From: Haloterrigena salina JCM 13891 | Lineage (GTDB): Archaea; Halobacteriota; Halobacteria; Halobacteriales; Natrialbaceae | Length of the DNA stretch: 64,000 nt | Reading direction: 5' to 3' | Assembly: GCF_000337495.1 (NCBI RefSeq) | Contig: NZ_AOIS01000012.1 | Coordinates: 1 to 64,000, forward strand | Shown: positions 12,962 through 22,776 of the stretch, in pieces | Layout of the letters: the number at the start of each line of letters is the position of its first letter | Position numbering within the stretch: the first letter of the stretch is position 1 | Program-made: the position numbers and the translations under genes | Notes under the pieces: model-generated | Databases searched by the model: none | The model's input: the letters and a program-made list of their open reading frames with translations, nothing else | What the model was told of the DNA's origin: nothing

Positions 12962-13813
12962 TTAGCGCTCGGGTAGCGCTCGACGGGGCAACACCTGCAG
13001 TTCGGGCTCGTGTTGAACGGTCGCCTCGACGCCGAAGACGTCGGCCAGCAGCTGCTCGGTCACGACTTCCTCCGGCGGCCCCCAGTCGTACAGTTCCCCG
13101 TCGTGCATCGCCACCAGATAGTCCGCAAAGCGGGCCGCTTGGGCGATGTCGTGGAGGATGACGGCCACGGTGACCCCCTTCTCCTCGTTCAACTGGCGGA
13201 TCGTCTCGAGGACGCGGAACTGGTGGTGGACGTCGAGGAACGTCGTCGGTTCGTCGAGCAGGAGGACGTCCGTATCCTGGGCCAACACCATCGCGATCCA
13301 GGCCAGTTGCTTCTGGCCGCCGCTCAGTTGGCCAAGTTCGGCGTCCCGGAGGTCCTCGATCCCCGCCAACTCGAGGGCGCGTTCGACGGCCGCGTGGTCT
13401 TCCTCGCTGACGCTGTCGAAGAAACCGCGGTGCGGGTAGCGGCCGTGGTAGATCAGATCCTCGACGGTGATCGAACCCAGCGAGTCGTTCTCCTGGGAGA
13501 GGACGCCCAGTTCGCGGGCCAGTTCCTTCCGGTCGAACGTGTCGAGTTCCTTGCCGTGGATTCGGACCGTCCCCCGTTCGGGCTCGAGGTGGTTCGAGAG
13601 CGACTTCAGCAGCGTACTCTTCCCGCTGCCGTTTGGCCCGACGAGTGCGGTTACGGCGTTTTGGGGAATGTCCAGTCGGGCGCACTCGACGATCGTCTCC
13701 TCGGTCGTCGGGTAGCTCAACGAGAGGTCCTCGCCGACCAGCGCGCTCTCGACCGCGACGCCGTCACTGTCGGTGATCCGTTCTTGGGTCATCTGCGTCT
13801 TGTTCTGTGCCAT
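12962..13813 (-). CDS. Iron/siderophore ABC transporter ATP-binding protein
   Basis: A 283-residue ATPase of the FecE/BtuD class that powers uptake on the cytoplasmic face of the membrane. Walker A is GPNGSGKST, the signature is LSGGQKQ, Walker B is VLLLDEPTTFLD, and a switch histidine follows in VILHDIAQA. About 28 residues precede the core. Its ATG overlaps the stop of the permease gene (TAATG), so the two are translationally coupled. Length and motifs are normal for the family. Confidence 0.92.
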   Translation of the reverse strand: MAQNKTQMTQERITDSDGVAVESALVGEDLSLSYPTTEETIVECARLDIPQNAVTALVGPNGSGKSTLLKSLSNHLEPERGTVRIHGKELDTFDRKELARELGVLSQENDSLGSITVEDLIYHGRYPHRGFFDSVSEEDHAAVERALELAGIEDLRDAELGQLSGGQKQLAWIAMVLAQDTDVLLLDEPTTFLDVHHQFRVLETIRQLNEEKGVTVAVILHDIAQAARFADYLVAMHDGELYDWGPPEEVVTEQLLADVFGVEATVQHEPELQVLPRRALPER

Positions 13814-14922
13814 TATAGTTCACCCATGGATTGCTGCTTGCGCATCAAATAGAGGAAGTAGGGGCCGCCGACCAGCCCGGTCACGACGCCGACGGGCATC
13901 TGCATTCCGCCCAGCGCGAGGCGGGCGCCGACGTCGGCGGTGACCATCAGCGCCGGACCGGCGAACAGGCAGCCGACCATCAGCTGTCGGTAGTCGCCGC
14001 CGACGACGTTCCGGACGATGTGCGGGACGACGAGGCCGAAGAAGCTGACGATGCCCGCGACGGCGATCGCGACGCTCGCCGCGAGAATGGCGATCCCCGA
14101 GAGGAAAAAGCGGACGCGCTCGACGCGCATCCCCAGCGACTTGGCGGTGGTCTCGCCGAGCAACAGGACGTTCAACTGTCGCGAACTGGCGAGCGCGATG
14201 GCGATCGCAGCGATGCCCGGAATGAGGGCGATCCGGACCTCTCCCCAACCCGTGCCGGTGAACGAGCCCGTGAGCCAGGCGATCGCCGTCTGGGCGACGC
14301 CGAGGTCGTCCACGAAGAAGAACAGCCCCTGCTGGAGCGACTGGAAGACCATGTTGACGATCACGCCCGCGAGCACGAGGCGAACGGGGCTGGTCCCGCC
14401 CTTCCAGGCGATCCCGTAGACGACCAGGAAGGCGACGGTCCCGCCGAGCGCGGCGATCAGCGGGAGGTACGGCGCGAGCCCGGTGAAGACGACGAGCGTC
14501 GCCAGCACCGCGAACCCGGCGCCGGAGCTAACCCCGAGCACGAAGGGGCTGGCGAGCTCGTTTCGCGTCACTGCCTGGAAGATCGCCCCGGAGATCGCCA
14601 GCGTCGCGCCGGCGATAATCGCGACGAAGACGCGAGGGAGCCGGAGGTTCCACACCACGACGCTGTCCGTGCTCATCTCGGGGAGCTCGGTGCCGAAGAG
14701 AAACGAGGACCAGGCCTCGAGGTTGAAAAGCACCGTGGGCTCGAACACGGCTGACCACGCCTCCACGAACGTCATCGAGTACTCTCCGAACGTCACCTGT
14801 ACGAGTCCGGCGACGACCGTGATGATCGTACTCGCCAAACAGAAGAGCACGAGCGTCCCGGTAACCCAACCCTCCCGGTCCCGAGTCGCCGCGTGCTCGC
14901 CGACCGACTGCGCTTCTACCAT
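13813..14922 (-). CDS. Iron/siderophore ABC transporter permease (FecCD family)
   Basis: A 369-residue membrane protein with about ten hydrophobic segments. The NLRLPRVFVAIIAGATLAISG stretch near residue 91 and the GIVSFFGLVVPHIVR stretch near 297 are the hallmark FecCD sequences, the latter forming the coupling helix that contacts the ATPase. Only one permease gene is present, so the transporter would use a homodimer. It is the first gene of the locus and begins right behind an iron box. The ATG is at 14920-14922. Confidence 0.92.
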   Translation of the reverse strand: MVEAQSVGEHAATRDREGWVTGTLVLFCLASTIITVVAGLVQVTFGEYSMTFVEAWSAVFEPTVLFNLEAWSSFLFGTELPEMSTDSVVVWNLRLPRVFVAIIAGATLAISGAIFQAVTRNELASPFVLGVSSGAGFAVLATLVVFTGLAPYLPLIAALGGTVAFLVVYGIAWKGGTSPVRLVLAGVIVNMVFQSLQQGLFFFVDDLGVAQTAIAWLTGSFTGTGWGEVRIALIPGIAAIAIALASSRQLNVLLLGETTAKSLGMRVERVRFFLSGIAILAASVAIAVAGIVSFFGLVVPHIVRNVVGGDYRQLMVGCLFAGPALMVTADVGARLALGGMQMPVGVVTGLVGGPYFLYLMRKQQSMGEL

Positions 14923-14943: not shown

Positions 14944-15008
14944 AGACGTTTAGTACTTGTGGTTGCCGACCGAGGCGGGACGGCCCTTCCGTCCGCCTCC
15001 CGTGACGG

Positions 15009-15374
15009 TCACTCGAGCAGTTCGATCTCGTCGTCGCCGTTCGGGACGGCACAGATGAACGCGCCGGGTTCGTCGCTCTCGTTGCGGTACCAGTGGACCG
15101 TCCCCGCGGGGATGAGCAGCGAATCGCCGGCTTCGACCGCGTACTCCTCGTCTCCGATGCCTACGGTGTACTCGCCCTCGAGGACGTACTGTTCGTGTTC
15201 GACGTCGTTGGTGTGTTTCGGCACCTCGGCGCCGGGTTCGAGGACGAACCGGCGGATCGCGAAGTGGGGCGCGCCGTGGTCGTCGCCGACGAGGACGCCC
15301 TTCTCGAGGCCGTCGGCCGCGTCGACCGACTCGTACTCGATCTCGTCGCGACGCCGAATCAGCGGGTCGGACAT
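15009..15374 (-). CDS. Single-domain cupin protein
   Basis: A 121-residue beta-barrel protein. Cupin motif 1 reads PKHTNDVEHEQYVLEGEYTV, with two histidines and a glutamate able to bind a metal, and motif 2 reads GDSLLIPAGTVHWYRN, giving the last histidine. No catalytic fusion partner is present, so the substrate is unknown. The ATG at 15372-15374 (MSDPLIRRRDE) was chosen because upstream sequence has no family similarity. It ends 66 bases from the iron box of the divergent-looking but same-strand permease. Confidence 0.82.
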   Translation of the reverse strand: MSDPLIRRRDEIEYESVDAADGLEKGVLVGDDHGAPHFAIRRFVLEPGAEVPKHTNDVEHEQYVLEGEYTVGIGDEEYAVEAGDSLLIPAGTVHWYRNESDEPGAFICAVPNGDDEIELLE

Positions 15375-15451
15375 ACCTCGACTCGGCGCCGAACCCACAA
15401 AACGATCCGGGTCGATCGCTACAGCGCGCCGCGCAGTCGTGCGAGGAGATA

Positions 15452-15538
15452 CTAGACGCCGCCGAGGGTCCCGAGGACGAGCGCGAGGTGGAAGAGGATG
15501 ATCGAGCGTTCGGGAACGCCGATTGCAGGGGCGAACAT
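15452..15538 (-). CDS. Possible 28-residue hydrophobic micro-protein
   Basis: ATG at 15536-15538, TAG at 15452-15454; the product opens MFAPAIGVPERSIILFHLA and ends in a Gly/Leu-rich stretch, enough for one membrane helix. A TATA-like TTATAAGTTT (minus strand, 15562-15571) lies about 29 bases upstream of the ATG, the normal spacing for a leaderless archaeal mRNA. No family was recognised. It may be a real small membrane peptide or chance. Confidence 0.4.
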   Translation of the reverse strand: MFAPAIGVPERSIILFHLALVLGTLGGV

Positions 15539-15697
15539 GGGTGTCGACTACGATCTCGGGCAAACTTATAACTATCCCAACACGTATGCGCCGATACCGC
15601 TCCGCCGGGATTTCGATTATACCGCAGCTGACGACGGCGCCGCCGCTGGCCGGTGTAAAATACAGTTCTGAAGTGCCGATACCTCCGCGAATTCGCC

Positions 15698-15892
15698 TTA
15701 CAGGCGCTCGACGTTCGTCGCGCGCGGGCCCTTGGGGGCCTGCTCGATGTCGAACTCGAGCTCCTGTCCTTCTTCGAGGTCCGGGCCGCCGATGTCTTCC
15801 ATGTGGAAGAAGACGTCCTCGTCCGCGTCCTCAGTTTCGATGAATCCGTAGCCGCCAGTGTCGTTGAAGAAATCAACGGTTCCTTTCGCCAT
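15698..15892 (-). CDS. cspA: Cold-shock domain protein CspA
   Basis: A 64-residue OB-fold protein of the usual haloarchaeal length. The RNP1-like GGYGFIET and RNP2-like DVFFHM motifs that stack on single-stranded nucleic acid are intact. It should act as an RNA chaperone in the cytoplasm. A TATA-like CTTTATCAG about 30 bases upstream suggests its own promoter. It stands alone. Confidence 0.93.
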   Translation of the reverse strand: MAKGTVDFFNDTGGYGFIETEDADEDVFFHMEDIGGPDLEEGQELEFDIEQAPKGPRATNVERL

Positions 15893-16003
15893 TGCTTCTG
15901 AAGAGAACGCCGCGACACTGATAAAGCCTGCGGCTCGACTCAGCTCTCGATATCGAGGGTATGGCGGGCCATCGCCCCCGTTTCGTCGAAAATCGTCGTT
16001 CGG

Positions 16004-16461: not shown

Positions 16462-16926
16462 ATGACGGACTACGATCTCGACGCGGTCGATCGGGAGATT
16501 CTCTACGCGCTCCAGGAGGAAGCCCGGAACCTCTCGTCGAGTGAGATCGCCGAGCGGACCGACGCGTCCTCGAGCACCGTTCGCAAACGCATCCAGCGGT
16601 TGGAGTCGGAGGGCGTCATCAAGGGCTACAGCGCCAACATCGACTACACGAAGTCGGGGTATCCGATCCGGATGCTCCTCTACTGCACGGCGTCGATTCC
16701 GGAGCGAGGCGACTACATCGACGATCTACTGGACATTTCCGGCGTCGTCTCGGTACAGGAGTTAGTCACGGGCGAGCAGAACCTGCTCGTGACGGCCGTC
16801 GTCAAGAACGACCGAGAGATCACGCCGATCGCACAGGAGATCTCGGACATGGGGCTGACGATCACCGACGAAGTGCTCGTGCGGAGCCACCAGTCGACGT
16901 CGTTCGACGAATTCTCCTCCCAGTAA
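16462..16926 (+). CDS. Lrp/AsnC family transcription regulator
   Basis: A 154-residue regulator. Residues 5-60 form a winged helix-turn-helix (LDAVDREILYALQEEARNLS, then SSTVRKRIQRLESEGVIKGY), and the C-terminal half is a RAM/AsnC ligand-binding domain (GVVSVQELVTGEQNLLVTAV). A CTTATAG TATA box lies about 26 bases before the ATG, so the mRNA is probably leaderless. It lies about 300 bases upstream of dabB on the same strand and could regulate it; the sequence does not prove this. Confidence 0.88.
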   Translation: MTDYDLDAVDREILYALQEEARNLSSSEIAERTDASSSTVRKRIQRLESEGVIKGYSANIDYTKSGYPIRMLLYCTASIPERGDYIDDLLDISGVVSVQELVTGEQNLLVTAVVKNDREITPIAQEISDMGLTITDEVLVRSHQSTSFDEFSSQ

Positions 16927-17010: not shown

Positions 17011-17039
17011 GACTGAGACGTTCTCTGACTGAGACATTC
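17011..17039. repeat. Direct repeats upstream of dabB
   Basis: GACTGAGACGTTC (17011-17023) and GACTGAGACATTC (17027-17039) are direct repeats with a 16-base period, about 70 bases upstream of a TATA-like ACTATAATAA (17109-17118) that should drive dabAB. Spacing of one and a half helical turns suits an activator or Lrp-type regulator. Confidence 0.45.
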
Positions 17040-17228
17040 GCGATGAGTGCCGTGTTTATCACGATCGTCCGCTATAGAGCGAGGGGCGAACGTTTTGTTC
17101 GAACCAAAGACTATAATAACCAGTCTGTTCGTATATTGGGTGAAGACGACCGGCGGTGCAAGTGTTGCCGGGACCGGTTCGGCGCGACCCGGCCGCGATC
17201 CCGCGCTGGTCGAGCGCGAAATCGAAGC

Positions 17229-18728
17229 ATGACCGACGAAAGTGCACCCACATCCGACGACGCCGTCGCACAACTCTCCGAACCGACGCCATCGACCTCG
17301 CTCGTTCCGCGAGCGGCGACGCGGACGGTTTGGACGCTGTTCGCCCTCAGCGTCGGGGTACTCGCGCTGGCGGCCCGGAACGGAGCCGGCTGGGAGTTTG
17401 CAGGCGCGCTGCGCGTCGACGGGCTGACCGCGGTGATGTGGGTCGTAGTCACCTTCTTCAGCGGGATCGTCCACAGCTACTCCCGGCGCTACATGGCCGG
17501 AGATCGTCACATCGATCGGTTCTACTATCGCGTTCTCGGGTTCACGCTCGTCGTCATGACGCTGACCGCGGCGAACCACGTCGCGCTGTTCGCGGCGGCG
17601 TGGCTGGCGATGGGGCTGCTCATGGCGTCGCTCATCGGTCACGTTCGCGAGTGGGAGCAGGCCCGAGCCGCGGCCGCCCTCGCTCGTCGGTACTTCCTCG
17701 CCAGCAGCGGCCTGCTGGCCGCCTCGCTGGCCCTCCTCGCCTGGGCGACGGGCGCGACCACCCTCACCGGCATCTTCGGCGCCCTCGAGGGCGTCTCGCG
17801 AACGGTCGGCCTCGTCGCCGCCGGTGGGATCGTCCTCGCAGCGGTTATCCAGTCCGCCCTGTTCCCCTTCCACAACTGGCTGCTATCGTCGATGACGGCG
17901 CCGACGCCGGCGTCGGCCCTGATGCACGCCGGGTTCGTCAACGCGGGCGGGCTCCTGTTGACCAGGTTCGCTCCGGTGGTCGCCGACCACCTCGCCGTCA
18001 TGTCGTTCGTCGTCCTGCTCGGCGCCGTCAGCGCCCTCCTCGGACAGGCGATGATCCTCGTCCAGACGGACGTCAAACGCAAGCTCGGCTGCTCGACCAT
18101 CGCGCAGATGGGCTTTATGATACTGCAGTGCGGCCTCGGCTTCTTCGCCGCGGCGATCGCCCACCTCGTCCTCCACGGCTTCTACAAGGCGTACCTCTTC
18201 CTCTCGTCGGGCGCCGCCGTCGAGCAAGCGGTGCCGAAAGACGGGAAACAAACCCACCTCGGCTTCTCCGGGATCGCCGTCAGTCTGTTGACCGCCGTCG
18301 GCGGCGGCGTCCTGTTCGGCGTGCTGACCGGGAAGGCGACGAGCCTCGAGTTGAACAGCGGGACCATCCTGACGCTGGTCGTGGTCCTGACGACGCTGAC
18401 CGCGGCACGGGACATCCTCCGGCGCTCGACCCTGCCGGCGTCGGTCAGGTTCGTCAGCGCCCCGCTGGTCGTCCTGACCGCGATCAGCGGCTACGCCATC
18501 GCGTTCAACGCCGTCTCGACGATGCTGTCGGGCGTGCCGATGACCCACGTCTCGACGGAGATGACGATCGCCCACTACCTCGTCGTCGCCCTGTTCGTCG
18601 GCGCCTATCTCGTGGCCGAACTCGGCTGGTACCGCTCGAGCAAGCGCCTCTACGTCTCGCTTTTGAACCTCTCCCAACCCGATCCGAACACCGTGCTCAC
18701 CGACAAGGAGGACTACAATGACGCGTAA
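17229..18728 (+). CDS. dabB: DabB-like proton-conducting subunit (NuoL/MrpA family) of an inorganic-carbon uptake complex
   Basis: A 499-residue membrane protein with about 13 hydrophobic segments. It contains typical complex I antiporter sequences such as PFHNWLLSSMTAPTPASALMH and DVKRKLGCSTIAQMGFM. In DAB systems this subunit passes cations and drives the DabA partner. Its end overlaps the dabA start by 11 bases, which supports the pairing and separates it from a respiratory complex subunit. The ATG at 17229 (MTDESAPTSDD) was chosen because the frame upstream covers the promoter. The AT-rich promoter lies 110-120 bases before it, leaving a leader of about 80 bases. Confidence 0.85.
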   Translation: MTDESAPTSDDAVAQLSEPTPSTSLVPRAATRTVWTLFALSVGVLALAARNGAGWEFAGALRVDGLTAVMWVVVTFFSGIVHSYSRRYMAGDRHIDRFYYRVLGFTLVVMTLTAANHVALFAAAWLAMGLLMASLIGHVREWEQARAAAALARRYFLASSGLLAASLALLAWATGATTLTGIFGALEGVSRTVGLVAAGGIVLAAVIQSALFPFHNWLLSSMTAPTPASALMHAGFVNAGGLLLTRFAPVVADHLAVMSFVVLLGAVSALLGQAMILVQTDVKRKLGCSTIAQMGFMILQCGLGFFAAAIAHLVLHGFYKAYLFLSSGAAVEQAVPKDGKQTHLGFSGIAVSLLTAVGGGVLFGVLTGKATSLELNSGTILTLVVVLTTLTAARDILRRSTLPASVRFVSAPLVVLTAISGYAIAFNAVSTMLSGVPMTHVSTEMTIAHYLVVALFVGAYLVAELGWYRSSKRLYVSLLNLSQPDPNTVLTDKEDYNDA

Positions 18729-21231
18729 GGAAATCGACGACCGTCGTCGCATCGAGGAGCGTATCGACCGCGCGGCCGAGCGCATCGGCTCCGTTTGGCC
18801 GCTGCACTCGTTTGTCACGGCCAACCCCCTCTCGGGGTTCGAGGACGAGCCGTTCCATCAAGCCGTCGCCGAGGGCGAACGCCTGTTCGGCGGCCGCGGC
18901 TACCCGCATCCGTCGGTCTTCCGCCAGGCGTGGGAGACCGGCCGGATCGATCCCGACGCGCTTCAGGCGGAACTCGACGCCCGCGGCATCGACCGGGAGC
19001 CCGAGACGCTCTTGGACGAGATGGCCGAAGCCGAGGCGGAACGCGGCTCCGAGACCGACGACGCGATTGCGGCCGTCGACCGCGTGCTGACGAAGTGGCT
19101 CGCGGCCTTCCTCGATCAGGGGCAGTCGAAGTGGCCGATGCCCGATCGCGAGGCGGGGTTCTACGCCGCGTGGCGCGAGATGGCTCCCCACGACGGGGAC
19201 GTGCCCGGCTGTGACGACCCCGAGGACCTTCCCGAGACGGCGACCGAGGCCCTCGAGGCGGTGCTGGGCGACTTCCCCGAAGGACGCTGGGAGGACGTCC
19301 TCGAGCACCACCTCGCCGCGCTCCCGGGCTGGAGCGGGTTCATCAAGCAGCGGACCGACGCCGACGCCAACGCCTGGCAGGAGCAGTACCCGATCACGCT
19401 GCCGGAGTATCTGGCGGTGCGGCTGACGCTGGCCGACCTGCTGGACGCGCCGATCGACCCCAATGCGGGCGACGACGGCGACGAGGCGACGACCGTCGCC
19501 AGTGCGAACGACGCGAGCGACGCGGACGACGAGATCCCTCTGCCCGAGATCTGGCTGACCGCGTGGGAGCGCAGCTACCGCGAGCGCCTCCTCAAGGGGA
19601 TCGACGACTCGGTGACGGACCCGTCCGAGGCCGACGACGGGGAACGACCGGCCGCACAGCTCGTGTTCTGCATCGACACCCGCTCGGAGGTGATCCGCCG
19701 CCACATCGAGGCCCAGGGTCCCTACGAGACCCACGGCTACGCGGGCTTCTTCGGGGTTCCGATGCGCCATCGAGAGTACGACTCGTACGCCGAGAGCGAC
19801 GCCTGCCCGCCGATCGTCGACCCGCAACACCGCGTCGTCGACCGTCCCGGGGAGGAAGCCGAGGCGGCGACGGCCCGCGACCGCTGGACCGGTGTGGCGA
19901 ACGCGGCACGCAAACACTTCACGACGCTCAAGAACAACGCCGTCGCCGCATTCACGTTCGTCGAGGGCGCCGGCAGCGCCTACGGCTCGGCGATGGCCGC
20001 GCGGACGCTGTCGCCCTCGGCGATCGCGAAACTCGAGCGCGCCGTCGAGGAGCGCGTGCCGAGCTACCACGAGGCCGCCGCCCCGGCCGTCGACTACGAC
20101 GCGTACGCCGACCACGGCCACGCCGACCACGCCCTCCCGCAGGGGATGACCCTCGAGGAGAAGGTCGAGTACGCCGCGACGGCCTTCGAACTCATGGGGT
20201 GGACGGCGTTCGCTCGCCTGGTCGTCTTCGCGGGCCACGCCAGCGAGACGACGAACAACCCCTTCGCCTCGAGTCTCGACTGCGGGGCCTGTGCGGGGAA
20301 CCCGGGCGGCCCGAACGCCCGCGTGCTCGCCGAGATCTGCAACGACGAGGACGTGCAGGCTGAGCTTCGCGAGCGCGGGATCGACGTCCCCGAGGACACC
20401 GTCTTCCTCGCGGGCGAGCACAACACGACGACCGACGAGATCGAACTGTTCGACGACGCGGTGCCCGAGAGCCACAGCGAGGATCTCACGTCCCTGCGCG
20501 CGGACCTCGAGCGCGCCCGCGCCGGGGCCGCAGCAGAGCGCACCGACGACGCGACCGGCGGCGATCCGGACGCCGGCGTCGCGTCGGTCGAACGCAAGGC
20601 GGCCGACTGGGCCGAGGCACGTCCCGAGTGGGGGCTGGCCGGCAACGCCTCGTTCGTCATCGGTCCCCGCGAACTAACCGAAGACCGGAACCTCGACGGG
20701 CGCGCGTTCCTCCACTCCTACGACTGGACGACCGATCCGGACGGTGACGCCCTCGAGGCGATCTTCACCGGGCCGCTGGTCGTCACTCAGTGGATCAACA
20801 ACCAGTACTACTTCGCGACCGTCGACAACGCGGTCTACGGCAGCGGCTCGAAGATCACCCAGAACCCGATCGGCAACGTCGGCGTTCTGCAGGGCAACGG
20901 CGGGGACCTGATGACCGGCCTGCCGCTCCAGTCGCTGAAGGTCGACGACGACCGGCCGTACCACCAGCCGCTGCGGTTGACGGCCGTGATCCACGCGCCG
21001 GTCGATCGCGTGACCGAGATCCTCCGCGAACACGAGGACGTGCGCACGCTGCTCGACAACGGCTGGATCGGCGACCTGACGGTCGTCGACCCCGAGCAGG
21101 ACAACGCCGTCTTCCAGTACGCCGGCGACCTCGAGTGGGCGGCAGAGACCGACCTCGAGGTCGAACCCGAGGCGACGGCGAAACCGGAGACCGAGCCCGC
21201 GCCGACCCCGCAGACGGCGGACGACGACTGA
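18718..21231 (+). CDS. dabA: DabA-like inorganic-carbon uptake subunit (UPF0753/DUF2309)
   Basis: An 837-residue soluble, acidic protein that should bind the inner membrane through DabB and hydrate CO2 in a one-way, energy-coupled manner. The zinc-site residues known from bacterial DabA are all recognisable: Cys318 and Asp320 in FCIDTR, His507 in FAGHASE and Cys522 in LDCGACAG; the 15-residue step between the last two equals that in the characterised bacterial protein. The N-terminal VWPLHSFVTANPLSGFED is also typical. An acidic insert near residues 255-275 and an acidic C-terminal tail look like halophilic adaptations. Confidence 0.88.
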   Translation: MTRKEIDDRRRIEERIDRAAERIGSVWPLHSFVTANPLSGFEDEPFHQAVAEGERLFGGRGYPHPSVFRQAWETGRIDPDALQAELDARGIDREPETLLDEMAEAEAERGSETDDAIAAVDRVLTKWLAAFLDQGQSKWPMPDREAGFYAAWREMAPHDGDVPGCDDPEDLPETATEALEAVLGDFPEGRWEDVLEHHLAALPGWSGFIKQRTDADANAWQEQYPITLPEYLAVRLTLADLLDAPIDPNAGDDGDEATTVASANDASDADDEIPLPEIWLTAWERSYRERLLKGIDDSVTDPSEADDGERPAAQLVFCIDTRSEVIRRHIEAQGPYETHGYAGFFGVPMRHREYDSYAESDACPPIVDPQHRVVDRPGEEAEAATARDRWTGVANAARKHFTTLKNNAVAAFTFVEGAGSAYGSAMAARTLSPSAIAKLERAVEERVPSYHEAAAPAVDYDAYADHGHADHALPQGMTLEEKVEYAATAFELMGWTAFARLVVFAGHASETTNNPFASSLDCGACAGNPGGPNARVLAEICNDEDVQAELRERGIDVPEDTVFLAGEHNTTTDEIELFDDAVPESHSEDLTSLRADLERARAGAAAERTDDATGGDPDAGVASVERKAADWAEARPEWGLAGNASFVIGPRELTEDRNLDGRAFLHSYDWTTDPDGDALEAIFTGPLVVTQWINNQYYFATVDNAVYGSGSKITQNPIGNVGVLQGNGGDLMTGLPLQSLKVDDDRPYHQPLRLTAVIHAPVDRVTEILREHEDVRTLLDNGWIGDLTVVDPEQDNAVFQYAGDLEWAAETDLEVEPEATAKPETEPAPTPQTADDD

Positions 21232-21276
21232 GGAGTCTCGGAGCACTCAAGACACCCGTTCTACTAGGGAGGGGCA

Positions 21277-21933
21277 ATGGGGCAGAGTCTCCTCGCGGCG
21301 TTGTTCGGCGATCCGTTCGCGATGATGAACACGATCGGGTTAATCGCGTTCGCCCTCGTCGGCTCATCGAAGGCGATTCGGGAAGAGTTCGACTTGCTCG
21401 GGATCACCATCGTCGGGTTGGCGATGGCGTTCGCCGGCGGGGCGACGCGCGACGTCCTCGTGACGCGGGTTCCGTTAGCGCTTCAGTCCCCGATCGAAAT
21501 TGGTCTGGGACTGCTCGGCGTCGGGTTAGCAATCGCGCTGAGCGTCGTCCTCACGGCTCCGGATACGCATCCGACCACGCTGGTCGCGGACGCGATCGGA
21601 CTCGCCGCGTTTACCACGACCGGCGCGATCGTCGCCACCGAAGCGGGCGTGTCGGTGTTCGGCGTCGTCGGTATCGCGACGATCAACGCGGTGGGAGGCG
21701 GTGTGTTCGCCGATATCCTCCTGGATCGCGCTCCGTTCATCCTGTTCGACGATTTCTACGCGAGCTGTGCGGTACTGGGCGGGAGCGCGTACGTTATCGC
21801 GGCGGTCGCCGGCGTCTCCGGGAACACCGCCGCCGGAATCTGTGCGGGCGTGACCGTGGTAACGCGGTTAGCCGCAGTCACGTACGATTGGACGCTGCCG
21901 ACGATACAGGGCTTAGGGTTAGTCGAACAGTGA
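21277..21933 (+). CDS. TRIC/UPF0126-type trimeric cation channel protein
   Basis: A 218-residue membrane protein with seven hydrophobic segments and an internal two-fold repeat. It contains MAFAGGATRDVL in the first half and INAVGGGVFADIL in the second, the paired glycine-rich turns of the prokaryotic TRIC family. These form trimers that conduct potassium and other cations. It lies 45 bases after dabA on the same strand, so it may be co-transcribed and could balance charge during carbon uptake; this is inference. A long inverted repeat follows it. Confidence 0.85.
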   Translation: MGQSLLAALFGDPFAMMNTIGLIAFALVGSSKAIREEFDLLGITIVGLAMAFAGGATRDVLVTRVPLALQSPIEIGLGLLGVGLAIALSVVLTAPDTHPTTLVADAIGLAAFTTTGAIVATEAGVSVFGVVGIATINAVGGGVFADILLDRAPFILFDDFYASCAVLGGSAYVIAAVAGVSGNTAAGICAGVTVVTRLAAVTYDWTLPTIQGLGLVEQ

Positions 21934-21971
21934 CCCAGTCGAACGGGTGAGAAACGCAGTACGGGAGAGGG

Positions 21972-22027
21972 GGTCTCGAGCGGCAAATTTGAGAAAAACA
22001 GTTCTCCCTCGGGTAGCTCTCGAGACC
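21972..22027. terminator. Large inverted repeat between convergent genes
   Basis: GGTCTCGAG (21972-21980) pairs with CTCGAGACC (22019-22027) across a 38-base loop that holds GAGAAAAACAG. It lies between the channel gene and the carbonic anhydrase gene, which converge, and may end transcription from both sides. Confidence 0.35.
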
Positions 22028-22071
22028 GGCCCCGCGTTCGGTCCCCTGCCCAGTTTCGAACCGGCCCCTCG

Positions 22072-22776
22072 CTACCGGTGGAGCAGACTGCGGGCCGTCG
22101 CCTCGTAGCCCTCGGGCACGATATCGGCGAGCGCGTCGGGGTCTGTCTCGCCGTTGGCGGCGACCAGGTACGCGCGGCCGGGTTCGTCGCCGTAGACGCC
22201 CTGAAAGTCGTAGACGAAGCCGTAGACGTCGATGTCGTCGGGAACGTCCGCGGCGTCGCAAAGCGAGCGCACCTGATAGTCGACGTTGTACTCGACGAGT
22301 TGGTTGACCACTCGGTCGTCGTCGGCGTCGGTGTCGACGAGGCCGCTCTCTATGGCCTCCTCGACGATGGGCACGAGCTGGTCGACCCACTTATCGACGC
22401 CCTGCGGGCCCGGCGGCTCCTCGCCGGTCGCGACGTGGTAGGCCGCGGTGACGGCGCCGCAGCCGGTGTGGCCGACGACGGCGACGACGTCGGTGCCGGT
22501 GTGGTGGATCGGGTAGAGGACGCCGCCGTCGACGATCCGCTCGCCGCCGTCCTCGTCCCAGATCTGGTTGCCGATGTTGCTCGGCGTGAAGACCGCACCC
22601 GGGCGTTCGATGCCCCACATACCCTCGTGAGAGACCCGCGAGTCCGAACAGCAGATCGCGACGACGGTCGGATGCTGGTCCGTCTGCACCGCCGCGAAGT
22701 AGTCCTCGGGCAACGCCTCGACGTGGCGCTCGTTGCCGGCGAGCAGCTCCTCGAGCGTGTCCCGATCGCCTCCCAT
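22072..22776 (-). CDS. Beta-class carbonic anhydrase
   Basis: A 234-residue enzyme that interconverts CO2 and bicarbonate. The zinc ligands are Cys43 in CCSDSR, His103 and Cys106 in GHTGCGA, and the Asp45-Arg47 dyad is intact. It ends with ARSLLHR. It is convergent with the channel gene behind dabAB, so it forms part of the same carbon-handling neighbourhood without sharing a transcript. The ATG at 22774-22776 gives MGGDRDTLEEL; a one-codon-longer GTG start is also possible. No export signal, so it acts in the cytoplasm, where it should equilibrate bicarbonate made by DabA. Confidence 0.93.
   Translation of the reverse strand: MGGDRDTLEELLAGNERHVEALPEDYFAAVQTDQHPTVVAICCSDSRVSHEGMWGIERPGAVFTPSNIGNQIWDEDGGERIVDGGVLYPIHHTGTDVVAVVGHTGCGAVTAAYHVATGEEPPGPQGVDKWVDQLVPIVEEAIESGLVDTDADDDRVVNQLVEYNVDYQVRSLCDAADVPDDIDVYGFVYDFQGVYGDEPGRAYLVAANGETDPDALADIVPEGYEATARSLLHR

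Follow-up and report, generated by a model that had tools for sequence, protein, structure and literature searches.

A conserved lrp-dabB-dabA unit predicted to supply bicarbonate in heterotrophic haloarchaea

We find that lrp-dabB-dabA is the true conserved unit of a haloarchaeal neighbourhood in which a DabB-DabA pair lies beside a TRIC-type channel gene and a β-class carbonic anhydrase (CA) gene. The reading we consider probable is that the haloarchaeal DAB/DAC is an energy-driven, one-way CA that would feed bicarbonate to a heterotroph under local Lrp control, with the β-CA overlapping it in function and the TRIC gene a passenger. At the gene level the case is strong that the locus belongs to the DAB/DAC family, apparently as a clade variant in which the ion pair of DabB has been lost and an Lrp protein is the predicted regulatory partner. 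If so, an isolated haloarchaeal dabAB annotation becomes a testable physiological system.

The window is the whole stretch of DNA that was analysed (64,000 nucleotides); the locus lies on contig C12 of a haloarchaeal draft assembly that totals 4.84 Mb and is 99% complete. The gene order is lrp (+), dabB (+), dabA (+), tric (+) and a convergent β-CA (−). All five genes score far above chance and are confirmed as real, and the first-pass annotation, which had named the same five products, is borne out by profile and PDB matches. The features are as follows.

12965-14922: FecCD-type ABC transporter, adjoining the cold-shock protein and cupin stretch
15009-15374, − strand: cupin, encoded within the span of a spurious reverse open reading frame
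15698..15892, − strand: cspA-like cold-shock protein, left-hand neighbour of lrp-dabB-dabA (context, from its translation)
16462..16926, + strand: lrp, Lrp/AsnC-type regulator, 154 aa (AsnC-type HTH; start ATG from relatives and sequence)
17087..17101, no strand: palindrome CGAACGTTTTGTTCG, conserved across an alignment of 17 Natrialbaceae-type promoters and a candidate Lrp operator
17112..17119, + strand: TATA-box-like TATAATAA, dabB promoter, a conserved block directly 3′ of the palindrome
17126..17131, no strand: second half-site TGTTCG, 3′ of the TATA box, with TGTTC kept in most relatives
17229..18728, + strand: dabB, NuoL-like membrane subunit, 499 aa (PF00361; best PDB match DabB2, 9rd0_B)
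18718..21231, + strand: dabA, zinc-binding catalytic subunit, 837 aa (PF10070; DabA2, 9rd0_A)
21277..21933, + strand: TRIC-type channel gene (PF03458 and PDB TRIC homology)
22072..22776, − strand: β-class CA, 234 aa (PF00484, catalytic residues kept)

Two starts were corrected: that of dabB to the ATG at 17229, against a mechanical open reading frame start at 17043, and that of lrp to the ATG at 16462, on the evidence of relatives and sequence. The dabB and dabA reading frames overlap by 11 bases. A long reverse open reading frame (14950-15918, −) was rejected as spurious because the cspA-like and cupin genes occupy another frame there, and its reading as a FecB-like gene was dropped with it.

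The DabB-DabA pair

The first-pass annotation had suggested that an archaeal DAB next to a channel and a CA would be a new carbon-handling module. HVO_2410/HVO_2411 of Haloferax volcanii are already annotated as dabA/dabB on the basis of DAB2 and predicted to form a CO2 transporter (PMC8305020), and DACs are mentioned in heterotrophic Halobacteria (PMC10880623). Thus, the pair in itself is not new. Of the 146 genomes sampled from the order, 62 encode DabA; in a set of 391 genomes with a 95% completeness filter the figure is 233. The H. volcanii genes are, like those of the window, an annotated haloarchaeal DAB pair, but their account is predictive, and the part of it available to us does not describe the Lrp partner, the operator, the link to CA or the loss of the ion pair (PMC8305020).

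The closest characterised comparison is DAB2 of Halothiobacillus neapolitanus (9rd0), with which the window shares a dabB-dabA pair and full-length homology. DabA is a full-length match to PF10070 (903 bits, profile positions 1-747) and aligns to DabA2 (9rd0_A) with an E value of 5e-113. DabB matches Proton_antipo_M (PF00361, E 2e-39), and its best PDB match is DabB2 (9rd0_B, E 3e-37). When the DabB model was used in a fold search, all the chains retrieved were of the NuoL/Mrp type; 9rd0 was not among them, possibly because it is later than the library's April 2026 limit, so the search adds little to the sequence match.

The catalytic features of DAB2 are all recognisable in DabA. Residues C318, H507 and C522 correspond to the zinc ligands Cys351, His524 and Cys539, D320-R322 to the dyad Asp353-Arg355, L640 to Leu658 (which stands in place of the Gln/His of CA), and E416 of the finger helix to Glu444. 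The DAB2 residues equivalent to the zinc site and dyad were shown to be essential in the solved complex (PMC13144422). The intact zinc site proposed by the first-pass annotation therefore stands, but as three ligands plus a dyad rather than four zinc residues. Its loss in relatives, which the same annotation had named as an observation that would count against its proposal, is not seen: C318, D320, R322, H507, C522 and E416 are invariant in 100 of 100 haloarchaeal DabA rows, and L640 is kept in 98, some genomes contributing two loci to these rows.

DabB is conserved along its proton path and altered elsewhere. Residues S256, H260, K310, S316, H339, H343 and K347 (DAB2 numbering) are all kept in the window and in 81-83 of 83 archaeal rows. 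In contrast to DAB2, haloarchaeal DabB is without the Lys235/Asp185 ion pair and without Arg182: the window has Q208 and S160 at the paired positions, the Lys235 position is Gln in 83 of 83 haloarchaeal rows, the Asp185 position is Ser, Thr or Gly across the same rows, and an uncharged residue occupies the Arg182 position. Among 17 bacterial rows, drawn from plasmid records and the bacterial matches of a homology search, Lys235 is retained in 14, and Asp185 likewise in 14. We counted the ion pair as common in, rather than defining for, DAB/DAC membership. Alanine mutants of the DAB2 ion pair reduce growth yield by 30-60% but retain complementation (PMC13144422), so its loss in archaea predicts altered coupling, not inactivity. 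The substitutions suggest that coupling in haloarchaeal DABs may be weaker or may proceed via another ion. K369, H449 and E464 are conserved in archaeal DabB and are candidates for taking the place of the pair. How ion flow couples to CO2 hydration is a current question for DABs, and the clade-wide loss of the ion pair amounts to a natural experiment on this complex-I-like coupling.

The same loss bears on whether the complex is instead a Na+-coupled bicarbonate importer, as has been argued for the DabB/DabA homologs MpsAB of Staphylococcus aureus, and not a proton-driven CO2 hydratase. The Lys/Asp pair missing from all 83 haloarchaeal rows is that of a proton-conducting prototype, and haloarchaea maintain steep Na+ gradients. 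For MpsAB, which is likewise found in a heterotroph and can substitute for CA (PMC6689103, PMC8567241), Na+ dependence has been proposed (PMC13144422); an Lrp unit is not mentioned in the available part of its description. However, the zinc site and finger glutamate are invariant, as expected of CO2 hydration, the other proton-path residues of DabB are retained, and DAB2 itself is not Na+-dependent (PMC13144422). We therefore regard Na+-coupled import as unlikely and favour CO2 hydration.

Lrp and the dabB promoter

The window Lrp matches an AsnC-type HTH profile (HTH_AsnC-type, 40 bits, cut-off 27). Its ligand-binding (RAM/AsnC) domain has no Pfam match at E 1e-3; NCBIfam Lrp models do align, below their cut-offs, and cover residues 53-176 of the 200-aa open reading frame. 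When this Lrp was searched against the 146 sampled genomes of the order, a sharp gap separated orthologs (at least 61% identity and at least 210 bits) from paralogs (at most 48% and at most 152 bits). An ortholog is present in 60 of the 62 genomes with DabA versus 1 of the 84 without, which supports the regulator that the first-pass annotation had placed upstream as a dedicated partner of dabBA. In both DabA-bearing genomes that lack the ortholog, no more than 3 kb separates dabA from the start of a contig. Of the 67 haloarchaeal loci whose upstream flank reaches 5 kb or more, 66 have a co-oriented Lrp gene upstream. Relatives in the same family that have no DabA (L081-L091) are also missing lrp and dabB, which fits gain and loss of the unit as a block, and most of them keep cspA beside CA. 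Bacterial dab loci differ in that they mostly have LysR, which lies within a few genes in 8 of 9 plasmid dab loci; the haloarchaeal locus has Lrp as its neighbour instead.

The dabB promoter carries a short conserved element. An alignment of 17 intergenic regions from the same family contains a near-invariant CGAAC, TTGTTCG, a TATAATAA-like box and then a TGTTC half-site; other families have a degenerate CGAAC-N4-TGTGAA, TTTAATA and TGTTC at a roughly equivalent position. Allowing up to three mismatches, the degenerate element occurs in 48 of 51 regions versus 21% of shuffles, where the 51 regions are non-independent, 220 bases were scanned in each, and some best matches fall elsewhere in the scan. 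Across the whole 4.84 Mb, CGAACNNTTTGTTCG is found twice; its copy outside the dabB promoter lies in apparent coding sequence, and the genome holds no second intergenic copy of the palindrome. From its position and conservation, the palindrome CGAAC-N5-GTTCG beside the dabB TATA box is most likely the Lrp operator.

Could Lrp be only a neighbour that acts on other genes and exerts no control over dabBA? In the one exception to the upstream arrangement (genome G051) Lrp is encoded 54 kb from dabBA, and in another genome (G010) it is present although dabBA is absent. Against this stand the co-occurrence and co-orientation given above and the rare, conserved palindrome at the dabB promoter, and we judge the idea improbable. 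We infer instead that Lrp would bind CGAAC-N5-GTTCG and tune how strongly dabBA is expressed to the cell's metabolic or inorganic-carbon status. On this reading the DAB comes with a dedicated regulator and a short promoter element that is conserved.

Several individual loci add detail on Lrp. In G010 (L105:9623-13061) the genes beside the DAB-Lrp ortholog encode a CO dehydrogenase (PF03063) and a CooC-like ATPase, a hint that C1/CO2 status may be what this Lrp family responds to. The palindrome has no strict match beside this lone lrp; two loose ones occur, both far away from the gene. In G051 an amidohydrolase gene (PF01979; L107:8836-9852, −) lies beside lrp on the opposite strand. The lrp-dabB gap is 1.3-1.5 kb in L040, L043, L046, L048, L051, L073, L078, L079 and L092, and these gaps may hold a PF01979 amidohydrolase such as that beside the G051 lrp.

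The TRIC channel gene

The TRIC gene encodes a clear homolog of solved prokaryotic TRIC channels (5wuc, 5h35), with two PF03458 stretches (repeats; 109 bits) and an E value of 1e-25 to 5wuc, but gene order does not tie it to the DAB unit. Where 3 kb or more of sequence follows dabA (69 haloarchaeal loci), TRIC is its neighbour only three times, in the window, L101 and L104, which come from a single genus. In two further congeners the slot is filled by different genes, and no TRIC occupies it in the other genera examined. We conclude that TRIC is a passenger in a variable slot outside the lrp-dabB-dabA unit. The first-pass annotation had cast it as a possible charge-balancing partner of DAB, and we rejected that role on these counts; of the gene order that it had proposed to survey in other haloarchaea, lrp-dabB-dabA and a recurrent CA hold up and TRIC does not. 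A four-part arrangement in which DAB, TRIC and CA act jointly, with TRIC balancing charge, would fit the order in the window and two congeners and the recurrence of CA near dabA. For TRIC, however, gene order refutes it as a conserved module, given the single genus and the unrelated genes in two congeners, and we give it almost no credence.

In one congener (G244, L102:11342-12647) the slot between dabA and CA holds a precursor with a Cys-rich C-terminus and no Pfam match, which we take to resemble halocin C8. A small membrane protein follows it and is a possible immunity partner.

Carbonic anhydrase and the supply of bicarbonate

The window β-CA (PF00484, 87 bits) keeps its zinc ligands C43, H103 and C106 and the dyad D45-R47, and no other PF00484 match occurs in its genome. 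In the 146-genome sample, 48 genomes have both genes, and in 21 of these a full CA gene is found no more than 10 kb from dabA, versus a chance of about 0.6% each; we rely on this count alone as unbiased because the fetched locus set was partly picked for CA proximity. The CA gene may be convergent downstream, on the same strand upstream, divergent from lrp, or on the same strand downstream. The link between CA and dabA seen by the first-pass annotation is thus real and recurrent, although the closeness may in part be inherited from a common ancestral location in individual clades.

The two genes also complement each other across genomes. Among 391 haloarchaeal genomes filtered at 95% completeness, and counting CA of the β class, CA is present in 361 and missing in 30; DabA is found in 29 of these 30 versus 204 of the 361 with CA (Fisher P = 2.6e-6). 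The 29 genomes span 11 genera in 5 families, and the genus-level test gives P = 0.027. On the 146-genome set, which includes incomplete genomes, the complementarity was not significant (P = 0.29); on its high-quality subset P was 0.004. The only near-complete genome without both β-CA and DabA is G010, which carries the Lrp ortholog. Given the 29 of 30, DAB and β-CA seem able to replace each other as sources of bicarbonate in haloarchaea, and heterotrophic archaea appear to need one or the other. The pattern parallels the staphylococci, in which CA and MpsAB replace each other (PMC8567241; PMC6689103).

These counts also weigh on the proposal that DabB-DabA serves ion homeostasis or generates membrane potential, its association with CA being incidental. 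DabB does resemble complex I and Mrp antiporter subunits, and MpsAB was originally named for membrane-potential generation (PMC8552792). However, the DabA zinc site is invariant, nearly all CA-less genomes have DabA, and CA has repeatedly been recruited to the locus; we hold this role to be very improbable. Most probably the pump provides bicarbonate in a heterotroph, a task in which it and CA can replace each other.

In contrast to the DAB2 comparison, the present host is without RuBisCO (no PF00016 match in the genome), on which ground we rejected RuBisCO-linked carbon concentration. An intact DAB site in such a genome makes carboxylation supply, rather than a full fixation cycle, a sensible role, in agreement with the first-pass annotation. 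Carrying over CO2 hydration and its direction from DAB2 by analogy, we infer that CO2 entering the cell would be hydrated at the DabA zinc site, that ion flow through DabB together with the DabA finger helix (E416) would make the reaction vectorial, and that bicarbonate would accumulate in the cytoplasm for bicarbonate-using carboxylases. The nearby β-CA would be a second, reversible and functionally overlapping supplier rather than a subunit. Strong accumulation is not expected because an ordinary CA in the genome would dissipate bicarbonate. It is conceivable, but in our view doubtful, that haloarchaeal DABs form a distinct, self-contained class of vectorial CA, in which the ion-pair switch of complex-I-type subunits has been removed and coupling departs from that of DAB2 in ion, stoichiometry or gating, a dedicated Lrp sensing inorganic-carbon status replaces the bacterial LysR, and the complex can stand in for CA in entire genomes.

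Candidate users of bicarbonate in the genome are a biotin carboxylase homolog and two PEP carboxylase homologs. In the two PEP carboxylase copies (G000:C37:127308-130074, L140; G000:C57:226480-229213, L141) the reading frame shifts at a common position, and ambiguous bases occur in one of them, which makes the assembly uncertain here; misassembly of near-identical copies is the likely cause, a true shared frameshift the less likely one.

Finally, in four loci (L067, L074, L076 and L077) a divergent β-CA-like gene lies between lrp and dabB. Its product keeps the Cys/His/Cys residues with Met in place of the catalytic Asp, and is perhaps an inactive or regulatory CA.
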